From NCBI GenBank assembly GCA_021324045.1, contig JAJPJV010000012.1, positions 1 through 56,971 of the forward strand: a stretch of 56,971 nucleotides of DNA, given 5' to 3'. Under the pieces are notes generated by a model, which did not search any database, had not been told where the DNA came from, and saw only the letters and a program-made list of their open reading frames with translations. Position numbers and translations under genes: made by a program. This stretch comes from Actinomycetota bacterium (GTDB lineage Bacteria > Actinomycetota > Acidimicrobiia > Acidimicrobiales > RAAP-2). Of this stretch, positions 33,866 through 40,495 are shown one piece after another (the stretch's first letter is position 1; every line of letters begins with the position of its first letter).

Positions 33866-33985
33866 CCCAACGGAAGGCTATCGATCTCGGTCGAGCTCTG
33901 ACCCATCGTGTCTAACTCGAACACCTTCGGCGAGAAACACAACTCACACGGCGATCCAGTAACCACCAATCCAAAAGGAGGACCA

Positions 33986-35107
33986 TTGCATCGATTCGCC
34001 CGCGCTACACGCCTGCTTGCCGCTACCACGATTGCCCTGGTTGTCGGCGCCTGCAGCTCGCTCGCTGTCGGGACCACGGTAGGCGCCATGCCAAAGCTGC
34101 CAAGAAGCGGGGTGGAGAATCCCCCTGATGGTCCGATCAGCGAGACCGGCAGCACGCTGCTCTACCCGTTGTGGAACATCTGGGTACCCGCCTACACCCA
34201 AAGGTTTCACGGGGTCTCCGTAACGACTGCAGGGACGGGATCTGGAACCGGAATCTCAAGCGCGGCAACAGGCACCGTTGATATCGGGTCCTCAGACGCC
34301 TACCTCTCACCCAGTCAGCAACAGCAGTATCCGACCCTCGAAAACATCCCGCTTGCAATCTCAGTGCAGGTGATCGCGTACAATCTCCCTGGGATCACGG
34401 CACATCTTCACCTGAGCGGCAAGGTCCTTTCCGACATCTACCAAGGGAAGATCACAAAATGGAACGATCCCGCTATCACTTCGGCGAATCCCGGAGTGAA
34501 CCTTCCTTCCATTCCCATCGTGGCTCTCCACCGCTCCGACGGCAGCGGTGACACCTTCCTCTTCACCCAATACCTTTCCAAGTCGGACCCTTCCGGCTGG
34601 GGAACGAAGGTGTCCTATGGAACCAGCGTCTCATGGCCAAGCACACCTGGTGCGCTCGCCGAACAAGGGAACGGTGGCATGGTCTCCGGCTGCAAGGCCA
34701 CGCCCGGCTGCATCGCATATATCGGGATCAGCTACCTCTCACAGATCCTCGGCGACGGAATGACTTACGCGGCATTGCTCAACGGCAGGGGACAATACGT
34801 CCTACCAACCACCGCGACCGTGGCTGCCGAAGCAGCGTACTTCGTCAAGAAGACCCCGCCGAGCGGAACTGTTTCCCTCATCGACGGTCCGGTGAAGAAT
34901 GGATACCCGATCATCAACTATGAGTACGCCATCGTGAACACGAGGCAGCCAAGCGCCTCAACGGCAAAGCGGATTCGCTCACTGCTCGAATGGGCAATCA
35001 ATCCGAAATTTGGCAACAACCCCGAGTTCCTCAGCCAGGTCAACTTCCAACCGCTCCCGGTGAAGCTATACAAGGCATCCATCAAGCAAATCCTCAAAAT
35101 CAGCTAG
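33986..35107 (+). CDS. pstS: Phosphate-binding lipoprotein PstS (TTG start)
   Basis: A 373-residue substrate-binding protein tethered outside the membrane. A lipoprotein signal peptide ends at LVVGACSS, with Cys the lipidated residue. Phosphate-pocket segments are SETGSTLLYP, GTGSGTGISSA, IGSSDAYL and HRSDGSGDTFLF. The start is a TTG at 33986: AAAAGGAGGA ends 5 bases before it and the signal peptide begins directly. A GTG at 33908 in frame lacks a ribosome site and would bury the signal. It is followed without a gap by pstC, with a strong hairpin just past the stop. Confidence 0.95.
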   Translation: MHRFARATRLLAATTIALVVGACSSLAVGTTVGAMPKLPRSGVENPPDGPISETGSTLLYPLWNIWVPAYTQRFHGVSVTTAGTGSGTGISSAATGTVDIGSSDAYLSPSQQQQYPTLENIPLAISVQVIAYNLPGITAHLHLSGKVLSDIYQGKITKWNDPAITSANPGVNLPSIPIVALHRSDGSGDTFLFTQYLSKSDPSGWGTKVSYGTSVSWPSTPGALAEQGNGGMVSGCKATPGCIAYIGISYLSQILGDGMTYAALLNGRGQYVLPTTATVAAEAAYFVKKTPPSGTVSLIDGPVKNGYPIINYEYAIVNTRQPSASTAKRIRSLLEWAINPKFGNNPEFLSQVNFQPLPVKLYKASIKQILKIS

Positions 35108-36202
35108 ATGGCGACCATTGATCGTGCCGCCACGGGAAAACCCGTGGCGGCACGACACGAACCGGCGTCGTTGGCCACCGCCCTTCGCCGCTGTGCGGCA
35201 TTCCTCCGACGGAACGAGCCGCACCTATGGACATGGGGTGGCCGAACGGCCGCCCTTGTCCCACTGGTGGCGCTGACGCTCACCGTTCTCGTCCTGACCC
35301 TGAAGGCCTGGCCTGCAATCAAGGTAAACGGGGCTCACTTTCTCGTTGGTTCGGATTGGAAGCCCGGTAACACTTACGGAGCGACGGTTCACACAGATGG
35401 CGTTGCGCACCCCTTAGGCTCCTCCTACGGCGCGTGGCCGTTGATCGCTGGAACCTTGCAATCCTCGGTCATCGCGATTGTGATCGCTGTACCGGTCTCG
35501 GTCGGCACGGCGTTCGCGCTCACTGAACGGATCCCCCGATGGCTGGCAGAGATCCTCCGCTCAGCGATCGAGATCTTGGCTGGAGTCCCCAGCGTCCTGA
35601 TCGGACTCTGGGGAGCACTCACCCTCGGTCCACTGCTAGCGAACGACGTATACCCCGTCATCGCCGACCACATGCCAGATATCCCAGTCTTCAGCTATTT
35701 TCGCGGACCCACCTATCACGGAGAGGGGTTGCTCACCTCCGGGATCGTCTTGGCGCTCATGATCGTGCCGATCATCGCCTCGACGACACGCAACCTGTTC
35801 GCCCAGGTTCCACCACTGCCCAAGGAGGGCGGCGAGGCATTGGGAATGACCGACTGGGAGGTTGGGCGCAGGATCACGATCCCTTGGGTCCGTTCAGGGA
35901 TCATCGGAGCGACCATGCTGGGCCTAGGCCGCGCGCTCGGCGAAACCATCGCCGTCGCCATGGTCTCCGGATCGCTGCTGAATACAATTGCCCCCAATAT
36001 CTACGGAACGATGGGGACCATCGCCGCCGCGCTCGTCACGCAGCTCGATTCGGCGTTTACTGATGGCACTGGGTTCGAAGTCCGCACGCTCGCCGAGCTC
36101 GCGGTCGTGCTCGTCGGTGTGCTGCTCGTCGTCAACATGCTCGGCAGGCTCATCATCCGTCGCACCGGTCACCTGGATGCACCGGCGGGGCAAGGGTACT
36201 GA
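35108..36202 (+). CDS. pstC: Phosphate ABC transporter permease PstC
   Basis: 364 residues with six to seven membrane helices and the permease EAA-loop block GGEALGMTDWEVGRRITIPW near residue 240, which docks PstB. The later GLGRALGETIAVAMVSG is highly conserved in PstC. The assigned ATG at 35108 abuts the pstS TAG stop. It lacks a Shine-Dalgarno sequence and its first codons lie in the 15-bp hairpin, so a start further in, such as the TTG near 35170 (LATALRRCAAF), is possible. Its stop overlaps the pstA start (TGATG). Confidence 0.93.
   Translation: MATIDRAATGKPVAARHEPASLATALRRCAAFLRRNEPHLWTWGGRTAALVPLVALTLTVLVLTLKAWPAIKVNGAHFLVGSDWKPGNTYGATVHTDGVAHPLGSSYGAWPLIAGTLQSSVIAIVIAVPVSVGTAFALTERIPRWLAEILRSAIEILAGVPSVLIGLWGALTLGPLLANDVYPVIADHMPDIPVFSYFRGPTYHGEGLLTSGIVLALMIVPIIASTTRNLFAQVPPLPKEGGEALGMTDWEVGRRITIPWVRSGIIGATMLGLGRALGETIAVAMVSGSLLNTIAPNIYGTMGTIAAALVTQLDSAFTDGTGFEVRTLAELAVVLVGVLLVVNMLGRLIIRRTGHLDAPAGQGY
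35122..35155 (+). promoter_or_regulatory. Perfect 15-bp hairpin at the pstS-pstC junction
   Basis: TCGTGCCGCCACGGG (35122-35136), loop AAAA, then its exact complement (35141-35155). It begins 15 bases after the pstS stop, inside the first codons assigned to pstC. There is no U-tract, so it is not a classical terminator. A hairpin here could protect the 3' end of pstS mRNA or partly block transcription or translation into pstC, giving more binding protein than permease. Confidence 0.8.
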
Positions 36203-37110
36203 TGATCCGAAGAACGCGCTATGTGGCTTCGGAAGCCTTTCCTCGCTCTCGACGGCGCCGCGCGGCCGATGTTGCATTCCGGGTGGGAGCGCTCGCCGCG
36301 CTTGCCATCGTCGTGGCACCAGTGGTCTGGGTGATGGCCGACGTCGTCGCCCGAGCAATTCCGCACTGGCGATGGTCGGTGCTTGTGACCAGCACAGTCG
36401 GAACGGGTGGAGGACTTGAGAATGCCATCCTTGGAACGCTGGTCCTCTTACTAGGGGTCCTCGTCCTCGCGGGCACAGTGGGAATCCTGGCTGGTGTCTA
36501 CCTCGCGGAGTTCGCCGGTCTGGGCCGGAGCGGCAAGCCGCGTGGCAGGCTCTTGCGCGCTGCCACCGAGATCCTCTCAGGGGTTCCCTCGATAGCCCTC
36601 GGCCTCGTCGGATACCTCGCGCTCGTCACCGGCTTCCATTGGGGATATTCGCTGCTCGCCGCCCTCATCGTGCTGTCGGTGATGGTCATCCCCTACATCG
36701 CCCGCGGCACCGAGACCGCGTTGCGCCAAGTGCCGACCAGTTATCGCGAGGGCGCCCAGGCCCTCGGGATGCCGGCAGGATACGCGCTACGCAAAGTCAT
36801 CCTCAGGACAGCGTTCCCCGGAATCGTGACCAGCCTCCTCATCGCCCTCGCAATCAGCGGCGGTGAGACTGCTCCGCTCCTGTACACGGCTGGCTGGTTC
36901 ACAGGGACGCCGAGAGCCTCCCTGCTCCATCAACCCATCGGATACCTCACGTATCCGGTGTGGACGTTTTGGGACTACCCATCGAACGAGGCCCACTATC
37001 TCGCATTCGACGCCGCGCTGATCCTGCTCGTTATCGTCCTTGTCCTGCTGGTGACCGCACGCGTCATCGTGAACCGGACTCAGCGCTTCGCCGAGAGCCG
37101 CAGACCTTAG
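36202..37110 (+). CDS. pstA: Phosphate ABC transporter permease PstA
   Basis: 302 residues with six membrane helices. Conserved blocks are GILAGVYLAEFAG, EILSGVPSIALGL and the PstB-docking loop REGAQALGMPAGYALRKVIL near residue 186, followed by ISGGETAPLLYTAGWF. Its ATG overlaps the pstC TGA. It is the last gene of the pstB-S-C-A unit. Its end overlaps by 4 bases the end of the convergent polysaccharide deacetylase gene. Confidence 0.95.
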   Translation: MIRRTRYVASEAFPRSRRRRAADVAFRVGALAALAIVVAPVVWVMADVVARAIPHWRWSVLVTSTVGTGGGLENAILGTLVLLLGVLVLAGTVGILAGVYLAEFAGLGRSGKPRGRLLRAATEILSGVPSIALGLVGYLALVTGFHWGYSLLAALIVLSVMVIPYIARGTETALRQVPTSYREGAQALGMPAGYALRKVILRTAFPGIVTSLLIALAISGGETAPLLYTAGWFTGTPRASLLHQPIGYLTYPVWTFWDYPSNEAHYLAFDAALILLVIVLVLLVTARVIVNRTQRFAESRRP

Positions 37111-37946
37111 CTGGGTGGACGCACCGAGGAGGAGCGCTCGACCGATACCAGCTGATCAAGGGTGACGGCGTGCAGCTCGAGACGTTTGAGCTCCGCAGCA
37201 ATCGTTGGCAACGCGGCCACCACGGTCTCCCACATTCGCTCACGGCCGAAGGCATCGTTATCGTGCAGCAGAACAATGGCGCCTTCCTCCAGGCGAGCGA
37301 TCACGCTCGCGGCCACCGTGACGGGGTCGTCCGTGAGCCACTCACGCCCCCATGCCGACCACAGCACCGTCTCAAGACGCTGTTCTTTGGCAGCAAAGAC
37401 TGTCGCCGCGCTGATCTGTCCGTAACTGGGGCGATACCACTTGGGTACCAGCCCGTGGAACCCCATGGTCTCCACGGCTGCTCGCACGTCCGATCTCACC
37501 CATGACGGTGACCGCAACAAATGATGCTCATGTCGGTAGCCGTGAGTCTCGATCTGATGCCCTCGGCGAGCGATCTCCCCGACGAGGGCAGGCTGTTCGC
37601 CGATGAGCGAACCAAGGCAGAAGAACGTGGCCCGAAGCCCGAGCCGATCTAGTGCTTCGAGAACTGCAGGGGTACCCTCCGGATGTGGCCCGTCGTCGAA
37701 GGTGAGTGCAACCGCTCCTCCCCCTCCGGTGCACCGCCTGGCAGAGGGATCTTGCCCGATGTCTCCGGTCTGGAGAGGACCGGGTCCTAAGGTTCCGAGC
37801 GCCCGAGGACCGCGCCACCGACAGATCCCCAGCGGAAACGACCGCAGGGGCAACCACGAACCGAGAACGAGCACGGAAGGCAGGAGGTGCGCGGCCAGGC
37901 CAGCTCCTCCCACCTGGAAGGCCCTCCGCTGCCACTTTCCGATCAC
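37107..37946 (-). CDS. Polysaccharide deacetylase (NodB-homology, CE4)
   Basis: 279 residues with an N-terminal hydrophobic signal or anchor (about 12-35) and an extracellular NodB domain. The metal/catalytic motifs are LTFDDGPHPEG (TFDDG, about 80-90), the His pair in IETHGYRHEHH (HxxxH), the KWYRPSYG block, and the final WSAWGREW and IVLLHDND, whose His is catalytic. It should remove N- or O-acetyl groups from peptidoglycan or another surface polymer. The start is a GTG at 37946 with GGAG 6 bases upstream. It is convergent with pstA. Confidence 0.9.
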   Translation of the reverse strand: MIGKWQRRAFQVGGAGLAAHLLPSVLVLGSWLPLRSFPLGICRWRGPRALGTLGPGPLQTGDIGQDPSARRCTGGGGAVALTFDDGPHPEGTPAVLEALDRLGLRATFFCLGSLIGEQPALVGEIARRGHQIETHGYRHEHHLLRSPSWVRSDVRAAVETMGFHGLVPKWYRPSYGQISAATVFAAKEQRLETVLWSAWGREWLTDDPVTVAASVIARLEEGAIVLLHDNDAFGRERMWETVVAALPTIAAELKRLELHAVTLDQLVSVERSSSVRPPS

Positions 37947-38069: not shown

Positions 38070-38114
38070 TTGTCATCTGAGGCATTGTCATCCGAGACAC
38101 TGTCGTCTGAGGCA
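38070..38114 (+). repeat. Three tandem 15-bp repeats encoding LSSE(A/T)
   Basis: Units at 38070-38084, 38085-38099 and 38100-38114 share (T/C)TGTC(A/G)TC(T/C)GAG(A/G)CA. They keep frame and code for LSSEA, LSSET and LSSEA at the very start of the BldD-like gene. Each of the first two begins with a possible TTG start codon. Confidence 0.85.
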
Positions 38115-38753
38115 GCGCCGTCGGTGGCACCGGGGCTGGTGACTGACGAGATGGCGAACCCACCCGCCTCTACTGATCCGCCTGCAGAAGCTCGGAGTGT
38201 ATCCGAGAAAGGTGCCGACACGCCCGCGTCGGCGGAGTACGCACGCGCGGTCGGGGCCCGCTTGCGCGGCGTCCGCCAGCAACTTCGGCTCTCCCTCCAG
38301 GCTGTCGAGGCCCGCTCGGCACAGGAGTTCAAGGCGTCGGTGCTCGGAGCCTACGAACGGGGGGAGCGGGCGATCTCGGTTCCTCGGCTCCAGCGCCTCG
38401 CAAAGCTCTACCGCGTCCCGGTGGACTACTTGCTCCCGCCCACCGACATCGATGGCCCGCCTGAGGTCACCGAGCAGCGTCCCAGGGAGGCTGGTGGACC
38501 TGCTTCTCGAACCCCATGGCTGACGACCGACCGGAACCGGGTGATCATCGACCTCGGCCGGCTTGAGGGCCTCGACGAACTGGAGCGGACCTTGCTCCGA
38601 CGCTTTCTCGACACGATCCAGCGCCAGCGTCAGGAATTCGGGCAGCAACGCATCTCCATCCGCTCTGACGACCTGCGCGCGATCGAGATCCTCTTCGGCT
38701 TCCAGGCAAGGGCACAGGCTTCGCCGAGCGACGAGCAGCAGCCTGAACGCTGA
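38070..38753 (+). CDS. BldD-like transcriptional regulator with c-di-GMP motif
   Basis: About 227 residues from a TTG at 38070, placed 5 bases after GAGAGGG. The N-terminal HTH SAEYARAVGARLRGVRQQ continues to SVLGAYERGERAISVPRLQRLA and VPVDYLLPP, matching BldD of Streptomyces. The C-terminal domain has IIDLGRLEGL, then RQE, eight residues and RSDD. This is the BldD cyclic-di-GMP signature RxD-x8-RxxD with Asp replaced by Glu. It probably dimerises on c-di-GMP and represses or activates many genes. Three LSSE(A/T) repeats at the N-terminus precede the HTH; later starts at 38138 (GTG) or 38150 (ATG) would remove them. Confidence 0.85.
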   Translation: MSSEALSSETLSSEAAPSVAPGLVTDEMANPPASTDPPAEARSVSEKGADTPASAEYARAVGARLRGVRQQLRLSLQAVEARSAQEFKASVLGAYERGERAISVPRLQRLAKLYRVPVDYLLPPTDIDGPPEVTEQRPREAGGPASRTPWLTTDRNRVIIDLGRLEGLDELERTLLRRFLDTIQRQRQEFGQQRISIRSDDLRAIEILFGFQARAQASPSDEQQPER

Positions 38754-38863
38754 CACTCTCTGAAGACGAGACTCGCGCCGGGACGCCGCTGCGCGCCTCC
38801 TGTGCTGTAGGCCCTGCCGGGAACGCCGCTGCCGAACGGCGCCTCGACCGGCGGCCGAATGGC

Positions 38864-40495
38864 TCACTTGTGTAAGCCGAGCTGGATCGATTTGACCAAG
38901 AGCATGGTGACCGCCACGATCAGGTACCCGCGCAGCGCATACATCGCGACCAACCGTGGCCGGGACCATACCGGGCGCTGGAGCAGGTTGAGGGGAGGCA
39001 TTCTCCAGGTCGCCTTCCGCTCCTCTGAGATTGTCTCGAGGGCAATTCGCCTTGGACGTGACCGAAGAGCGATCGCTCCGCCGATGGCGTAGGCGACAAG
39101 GAGCACGCATCCCAGGACCAAGGCCAGGATCTTGACGTTGAGCTGAGGGAACAGCGTCGTCGCCATGAGCACCAGGGACATCATGAGCAGGATCGAGACG
39201 ATGACCGTTGCGACCGCGTTCAGCCACGGCCGGTTGACCCAAGGACCCAGAACCTCCTTGTCGTTGCAGAGCAAGAGCAGGAACACGGTTGCGCTCGGCA
39301 ACAGGACCCCGGCAAGAGCCTGCACGCCCGTCGTGATGAGGCCAAGCGGAGCCCCCGGGATCAACACAATGGCCGCGGCAAGAACGACCATGCCCGCGAA
39401 GATCCCGTAGAAGAATCGGGCCTCACGCCAGCTGCGATGGAGCGAATGGCGAGCTCCGAAGACATCGCCGAACGCATACGACGTCGAAAGCGTCACCGAA
39501 GCTGCTCCGATCAACGACGCATTGAGCAACACCACGGCGAACAATGCCCCGGCGGCATGACCGACACGACGGTCCAGGCCGATGGCGACGCCAAGGGCAT
39601 TGGTGAAATGGCCTGCGTACCCAGAGCCGGCGAAAGCTGCAGCGACCACGGCGACTACGAGCGAGGCACCGATCACGGTCACGAAGGAACCGATGACGGT
39701 GTCCACGCGCTCGTAATTGATCCAGCGTGGGGTGATGCGCTTGTCGATGATGTTCGATTGCTGGAAGAACAACTGCCACGGCGCGACCGTCGTCCCGACA
39801 ATCGCGATAATGAGCAGGACCGAGGTCGAGTTGAAGCCGCCTTTGACCCCCGGGACAACGAGATCGTGGAGAAAAGAGCTGACCGGCGGGTGGCTGAAGA
39901 CTGCGAGGGGGATCACCAAGAAGTTGGCGAAGATGAAGACGAACATGAAACGTTCCCACCGCCGGAAGCTGCCCGTTGCGGTCATGACGACAAGGAGGAT
40001 CGCCGCGATGGGAACCGACACGTCCGCACTGACGTTGAAATAGCGGAGTGACAGACTCACTCCGATGAATTCGGTGACGATGGTGAGGAAGTTCAGGATG
40101 AACAGGTCTCCGACCGAGAAGGCCCCCCAGAACTTGCCGAAGCGCTCATTGATCAAGCGGGCATGGCCGACGCCGGTGACCGCTCCGAGCCGAACGACCA
40201 TCTCCTGATTGACAATCAGCACCGGGATGAGCAGCGGAAGGGTCCAAAGGAGCGTCAGCCCGAAGTTCTGACCGGCCTGGGCGTAGGTGGCTATGCCACC
40301 GGCGTCGTTGTCCCCGACCATGACGATGATGCCAGGACCCATGATCGCCAACAGCGTGAGGATCCTCGCGGCCCACGACCGCCTGCGCGCAATGTCGTGC
40401 TGGCGAATCGTCCCGAAGGCGCCACGGATGTCACCGTGGTGTGCCTCGTCGAGCACGGCGTCGACGTGCTGGGCTTGGGAGACTGTCTCGGCCAT
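38864..40495 (-). CDS. Nramp-like divalent metal (possibly Mg2+) transporter
   Basis: A 543-residue carrier with about 11 membrane helices of the Nramp fold. Helix 1 has GPGIIVMVGDNDAGGIATY; the canonical metal-binding DPGN is DAGG (64-67), keeping Asp but losing Asn. In helix 6 the canonical MPHN is APWQ (238-241), so the soft Met ligand is Ala. Such changes are reported for Nramp-related magnesium transporters and predict harder ions than Fe/Mn. The ATG has GAGGT about 7 bases upstream. The next gene upstream encodes a detached MgtE-type sensor, consistent with Mg2+. A 386-base structured spacer separates the two. Confidence 0.88.
   Translation of the reverse strand: MAETVSQAQHVDAVLDEAHHGDIRGAFGTIRQHDIARRRSWAARILTLLAIMGPGIIVMVGDNDAGGIATYAQAGQNFGLTLLWTLPLLIPVLIVNQEMVVRLGAVTGVGHARLINERFGKFWGAFSVGDLFILNFLTIVTEFIGVSLSLRYFNVSADVSVPIAAILLVVMTATGSFRRWERFMFVFIFANFLVIPLAVFSHPPVSSFLHDLVVPGVKGGFNSTSVLLIIAIVGTTVAPWQLFFQQSNIIDKRITPRWINYERVDTVIGSFVTVIGASLVVAVVAAAFAGSGYAGHFTNALGVAIGLDRRVGHAAGALFAVVLLNASLIGAASVTLSTSYAFGDVFGARHSLHRSWREARFFYGIFAGMVVLAAAIVLIPGAPLGLITTGVQALAGVLLPSATVFLLLLCNDKEVLGPWVNRPWLNAVATVIVSILLMMSLVLMATTLFPQLNVKILALVLGCVLLVAYAIGGAIALRSRPRRIALETISEERKATWRMPPLNLLQRPVWSRPRLVAMYALRGYLIVAVTMLLVKSIQLGLHK

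Follow-up and report, generated by a model that had tools for sequence, protein, structure and literature searches.

BldD is a master gene switch whose usual trigger is a cage of four c-di-GMP molecules. The window analysed here, a stretch of 56,971 nucleotides from one contig of an Actinomycetota bacterium of the order Acidimicrobiales, encodes a BldD-like protein in which one of the signature residues of the c-di-GMP sensor is replaced. This raises the question of what such a sensor can still bind, and whether the replacement is a peculiarity of one sequence or part of a wider change.

A BldD orthologue with an altered signature

The gene (38070-38753, plus strand; 227 aa if TTG 38070 is the start) encodes an HTH_3 domain (29.7 bits in Pfam) followed by a BldD-like C-terminal domain (PF21179: E-value 7.3e-11, 42.2 bits against the Pfam cut-off of 27), whose match covers profile positions 1-55 of 70 (38538-38702, plus strand). 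The closest solved structures are the BldD DNA-binding domain (PDB 2ewt, E-value 1.3e-16), which identifies the HTH of the window protein (aa 54-123 by alignment to 2ewt; 38229-38438, plus strand) as an XRE-type domain related to that of BldD, and the BldD C-terminal domain (E-value 1.2e-4). Foldseek searches with the model of the window protein likewise gave clear matches to DNA-binding domains of BldD and weak ones to its sensor domains (E-value 0.02 to 0.04). Against the NCBIfam BldD equivalog NF050110 the window protein, which was the sequence scored, reaches 124.4 bits, below the curated cut-off of 250. The genome (2.75 Mb, 52 contigs) contains a single match to BldD-like_C, namely this ORF; a second intact BldD elsewhere was considered, and the same search found none. 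Judged from its sequence, ORF 38070-38753 is thus the single BldD orthologue of its genome, and the PF21179 match together with that to the solved DNA-binding domain bears out the homology proposed in the first-pass annotation. Exact copies of the BldD box (TNAC-N5-GTNA) occur three times in the window, against 5.5 expected, and none lies at the bldD-like gene; this box may not be the operator used in this order.

The signature had been described as RQE-x8-RSDD, with Glu for the first Asp of RxD-x8-RxxD, and this proves exact: codons 38628-38636 (plus strand) encode motif 1 as R-Q-E, in which Arg114 is kept and Asp116 is Glu, eight residues follow, and codons 38661-38672 (plus strand) encode motif 2 as R-S-D-D, with Arg125 and Asp128 kept (R-Q-E-FGQQRISI-R-S-D-D; positions assigned from the survey alignment described below). 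The window protein therefore departs from RxD-x8-RxxD, retaining three of the four residues and their spacing. In its passages on ligand binding, the 2014 paper on BldD (PMC4151990) names Lys84, Ile110, Asn118, Ser123 and Arg130 among the c-di-GMP contacts. Ile110, Ser123 and Arg130 are kept in the window protein, Lys84 is Arg, and Asn118 is Gly (38640-38642, plus strand), so that a non-conservative change and the Glu both fall at motif 1.

A polar tail in place of the last helix

The window protein does not contain a complete sensor with a second beta-alpha-alpha repeat: the Pfam match ends at position 55 of 70, and AlphaFold2 (mean pLDDT 74.7, 14 sequences) models no helix past that of motif 2, none being present beyond residue 182 of 200 (counted from ATG 38151), where confidence is low. 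For a canonical relative, an additional helix is modelled. According to these models and to a comparison with the tails of relatives, a polar stretch (38697-38750, plus strand) replaces the last sensor helix; since the 26 residues past motif 2 make up a tail of similar length to that of the relatives, removal of the helix by an early stop is ruled out. A C-terminal frameshift was also considered and rejected. The tails of 95 relatives were set against every reading frame of 38600-39100 and match strongly in frame only (best E-value 3e-10), this similarity ends by 38735, and among the matches listed no relic of the helix in another frame beyond 38735 is better than E-value 0.4. The BldD proteins of the genus labelled g8 (see below) end similarly, which also speaks against a frameshift. 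Of the earlier interpretation, BldD homology and a real Glu variant thus stand; the Glu is no isolated point change, as Asn118 and the last helix are gone too.

N-terminal repeats and the start codon

The ORF opens with three tandem 15-bp repeats encoding LSSE(A/T) (38070-38114, plus strand; units 38070-38084, 38085-38099 and 38100-38114), which agree pairwise at 13, 13 and 11 of 15 positions. The total, 37/45, is that of the best tandem triplet in the window and exceeds the maximum of 30 found across 20 first-order Markov shuffles, so the repeats that had been pointed out are real and above chance; as also stated, units 1 and 2 begin with TTG, and unit 3 begins with CTG. A dispersed repeat is not seen: the unit pattern with at most one mismatch recurs genome-wide only as units 1 and 2 and at one further site (G000:C47, one mismatch). 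Repeat number may, as suggested, shift the start; the family sample of 172 genomes contains no second member of the window genus in which it could be compared.

Downstream starts had been placed at 38138 and 38150, each off by one; the in-frame alternatives are GTG 38124, GTG 38139 and ATG 38151 (38124-38153, plus strand). That translation begins downstream of the repeats, at GTG 38139 or ATG 38151, and that the repeats are not protein-coding, is in our judgement an evenly balanced matter. Relatives begin, by eye, about 17 to 35 residues ahead of a YARAVG-like block, and the distance to this block is 28 residues from ATG 38151, 32 from GTG 38139 and 55 from TTG 38070. Ribosome-site energies (TTG 38070 -6.9, TTG 38085 -5.6, GTG 38124 -5.6, GTG 38139 -5.1, ATG 38151 -6.1) are close to one another and point the other way, the best preceding TTG 38070, though 5 to 20% of random 20-mers of the window match it (-7.7 at 5%, -5.4 at 20%). 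Scored for in-frame codon usage, which is not decisive for placing the start, 38070-38138 (0.06) fares no worse than 38139-38231 (-0.23).

Survey of BldD-like C-terminal domains

BldD-like C-terminal domains were collected from three samples: 198 genomes searched in the same family and order (107 with a match), 396 genomes of the phylum (128 with a match; 90 places read, comprising 30 returned loci and 60 fetched), and named contigs, of which 18 of 19 were used. The resulting 214 loci, minus L061 (cut by a contig end) and the duplicate L123, gave a set of 212 domains, which still includes paralogues and some near-identical loci (e.g. L125, L126, L127, L128 and L141, or L074 and L132, whose contigs are equally long). 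The BldD proteins of L125 and L126, on contigs titled as a Bifidobacterium breve MAG, are almost the same as the BldD of Actinobacteria bacterium IMCC26207 (L127), and the species label looks wrong. L113, L114 and L116 possess a BldD-like DNA-binding HTH without a recognisable BldD C-terminal domain; L110 and L142 also yield no C-terminal match, both being cut by contig ends.

The alignment reported in the 2014 paper, as far as its account of the signature goes, shows R114, D116, R125 and D128 conserved in every BldD homologue included (PMC4151990). Our survey found Arg114, Arg125 and Asp128 in 212/212 domains. Position 116 is occupied by Asp in 198, Glu in 7, Asn in 2, and Gly, Gln and Ser in 1 each, and is deleted in 2. 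The 14 domains without Asp116 are spread over six families, with half of them (7/14) in the clade of the window protein and g8; Glu is the commonest replacement (7/14) and is a real, recurrent variant. In two genomes of one other family, f74, the domain has RxE with Trp after the Glu and is complete (L227, L257). Asn118 is retained in 184/198 domains with Asp116 vs 1/14 without it (Fisher p 1.4e-12, kinship ignored), and the lone exception (L080) adjoins a deletion where the alignment is unsure. As Asn118 is lost along with Asp116 and the other three residues are invariant, motif 1 erodes as a unit and motif 2 stays. Part of the invariance of motif 2 reflects detection, because domains without it may escape the profile. 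In the literature covered, which leaves out preprints and most subscription journals, our searches brought up neither natural BldD variants with a changed Asp116, nor a c-di-GMP-independent BldD, nor BldD in Acidimicrobiia.

A clade with genus g8

By exclusive sequence marks, trees and partly shared gene order, the window protein forms one clade with the BldD proteins of seven g8 genomes (G007, G026, G038, G046, G054, G060, G064). Only these eight proteins carry RQQLRLS in the DNA-binding domain (8/96) and RAIE after motif 2 (8/212); the set of 96 consists of the window protein and 95 loci, leaving aside paralogues, partial matches and later fetches (L110, L112-L122, L124, and L125-L143 from named contigs) as well as the duplicate L123. 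RAIE is also absent from all 19 loci of the genome-contig search made with the window protein alone. The whole-protein tree groups the window protein with g8 (SH-aLRT 96), as does the tree of the DNA-binding domain (SH-aLRT 82; 70 columns, few forks resolved); L061, cut by a contig end, and L111, with a long insert, were left out of both. In a RecA tree, from which G155, G012 and G017 were omitted for partial RecA, the window genome and g8 group together with a further genome, G011 (bootstrap 83, SH-aLRT 90), which is placed closer to g8 than is the window genome (bootstrap 83, SH-aLRT 75); a constraint uniting the window genome and g8 to the exclusion of G011 cannot be rejected (AU p 0.26).

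A recognisable last helix is missing from every one of the eight clade proteins. Most of the aligned last-helix positions are also missing from L143, whose end is different and shorter. Asp116 is absent from 7/8, the seven g8 proteins having Glu, Glu, Gly, Gln, a deletion, a deletion and, in G046, Asp, while Arg114, Arg125 and Asp128 are unchanged in 8/8. Values of pN/pS, which are rough because synonymous sites are far diverged, were 0.13 for the DNA-binding domain, 0.26 for the C-terminal core and 1.04 for the tail in g8 (7 sequences, pairs summed), and 0.08, 0.02 and 0.21, respectively, in the canonical genus g15 (12 sequences). These estimates point to a working gene whose sensor is under relaxed constraint, and not to a pseudogene.

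Genomic and signalling context

In the window, bldD is preceded by genes read here as the phosphate transporter genes pstS, pstC and pstA (33908-37110, plus strand), and gene-order comparison places them upstream of it in three g8 genomes as well (G007, G046, G064). In G026 the 8 kb upstream of bldD contain no pst match, and the flanking families F36 and F20 are present; in G038, G054 and G060 the contig ends before the pst position. The seven canonical genomes examined share a different neighbourhood, without pst genes. In the window a polysaccharide deacetylase gene (37107-37946; PF01522, E-value 3e-25), divergent from bldD, has its stop overlapping the end of pstA; the g8 stretches compared have no match to such a deacetylase. 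In two g8 genomes the altered bldD is followed, some 1.7 kb downstream, by a sequence encoding a GGDEF domain (G026:C66:15408-15872, G054:C72:2172-2636).

The window genome has 8 GGDEF matches, 7 with an intact motif, and is predicted to synthesise c-di-GMP; GGDEF proteins are kept in 8/8 genomes of the clade. In the family sample a bldD orthologue is present in 35/172 genomes (42 with matches, minus 7 with weak, non-orthologous ones), each of which also has GGDEF matches. Conversely, bldD is absent from all 31 genomes that lack GGDEF (Fisher p 8e-4, kinship ignored), and 106 have GGDEF and no bldD. The near relative G011 (about 93% complete) yields no match to bldD and none to GGDEF. One of its loci (L286, G011:C20:6000-25000) contains pst genes that lie one gene away from a deacetylase resembling the one in the window, and no bldD was found in this 19-kb stretch. 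BldD and c-di-GMP synthesis have thus apparently been lost jointly in G011, as far as its genome sequence tells.

What the eroded sensor may bind

In this clade of BldD orthologues the sensor has lost its last helix and a large part of the motif-1 half of the c-di-GMP site (Asp116, Asn118), and has kept Arg114 and motif 2. One reading, for which we see about as good a chance of being right as wrong, is that the sensor has become a half-site. Such a protein would be predicted to bind one c-di-GMP dimer, or to bind weakly, and a half-site would leave the natural pattern, with position 116 free and positions 114, 125 and 128 fixed. The prediction draws on PDB entries 5tzf and 5tzg, titled BldD CTD(D116A)-(c-di-GMP)2, in which that variant is combined with a c-di-GMP dimer and which are among the Foldseek matches of the window model (E-value 0.02 to 0.03); a passage of PMC11082216 also describes BldD as able to dimerise with one c-di-GMP dimer bound. 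Besides the pattern of the four signature residues and the loss of Asn118 with Asp116, we count in its favour the retained Ile110, Ser123 and Arg130 with Arg for Lys84, the GGDEF genes of the genome and the association of GGDEF with bldD in the family, and the C-terminal core of g8, still constrained (pN/pS 0.26), though less so than in g15 (0.02). Against it counts a charge-swapped motif 1 (R114D with D116R), which in the mutant data given in PMC4151990 abolishes c-di-GMP binding by Streptomyces BldD, although Arg114 is changed there as well. The missing helix could unfold the site, and G046, of the same clade, retains Asp116. The detection effect behind the invariance of motif 2 and the kinship ignored in the GGDEF association also count against it. 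A 2017 study is said to regard the four-molecule complex as the functional form, in which case proteins with a half-site would switch more weakly or at another setting.

It is also conceivable, but in our view rather unlikely, that Glu simply substitutes for Asp, the full c-di-GMP tetramer being bound and the protein acting as an ordinary BldD. The prevalence of Glu among the replacements, the intact x8 spacing and other three signature residues of the window protein, and the occurrence of RxE with a complete C-terminal domain in other families (L102, L224, L227, L257) would fit this explanation, which has to contend with the loss of Asn118, the unrecognisable last helix, and a sister genus in which position 116 is also Gly, Gln or deleted. 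If, alternatively, the sensor has decayed altogether, its remaining residues would serve folding or protein contacts, and the protein would regulate independently of c-di-GMP, through the HTH alone or via another dimer contact. The relaxed constraint in g8 (tail pN/pS 1.04 vs 0.21 in g15) and the absence of bldD and GGDEF matches from G011, placed in the clade by RecA, agree with such a course, as does the statement, in the part of PMC4151990 that deals with the isolated domain, that the BldD DNA-binding domain alone can dimerise at concentrations of at least 10 uM. Yet Arg114, Arg125 and Asp128 are unchanged in every protein of the clade and GGDEF proteins are retained in every genome, and we consider c-di-GMP independence rather unlikely too.

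Extending the half-site interpretation, we put forward tentatively, as a possibility we would not yet favour, that natural half-site BldD proteins, in which Asp116 and Asn118 were lost together more than once, use the c-di-GMP dimer rather than the tetramer as their physiological ligand in several actinobacterial lineages, and that the window clade is on a route leading, in G011, to the disappearance of both BldD and c-di-GMP signalling. The survey shows that one of the four residues called conserved in 2014 is not, and that its loss is tied to that of Asn118. A half-cage, represented here otherwise only by the engineered D116A structure, becomes testable as a natural ligand state, in a lineage where a switch run by a second messenger seems to be breaking down, and where nature itself provides a test of how switches of this kind are rewired.

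Comparison with known BldD proteins

With BldD of Streptomyces (2ewt and 4ob4 for the DNA-binding domain, 4oaz and 5khd for the sensor) the window protein shares an HTH that is 54% identical in the Foldseek alignment and a sensor of which 54 residues align, with Arg114, Arg125 and Asp128 in place. It differs in the changes of Asp116 to Glu and Asn118 to Gly, in the unrecognisable last helix and in a longer N-terminus. Canonical BldD proteins of the same family and order have the same domain order and are 48 to 61% identical to the window protein (among the matches listed above 150 bits, the window itself excluded); unlike it, they mostly have RQDFNGR-x4-R-x-[ED]-D and the last helix. The g8 proteins resemble that of the window in the RQQLRLS and RAIE marks and in having no recognisable last helix, and are more eroded, the motif spacing being shortened in 5/7. 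The D116A intermediate of 5tzf and 5tzg, compared here by the titles of these entries, has an engineered Ala in a complete domain, whereas the window protein has Glu together with an altered Asn118 position and last helix; in both, position 116 is not Asp, and Arg114 and motif 2 are intact.
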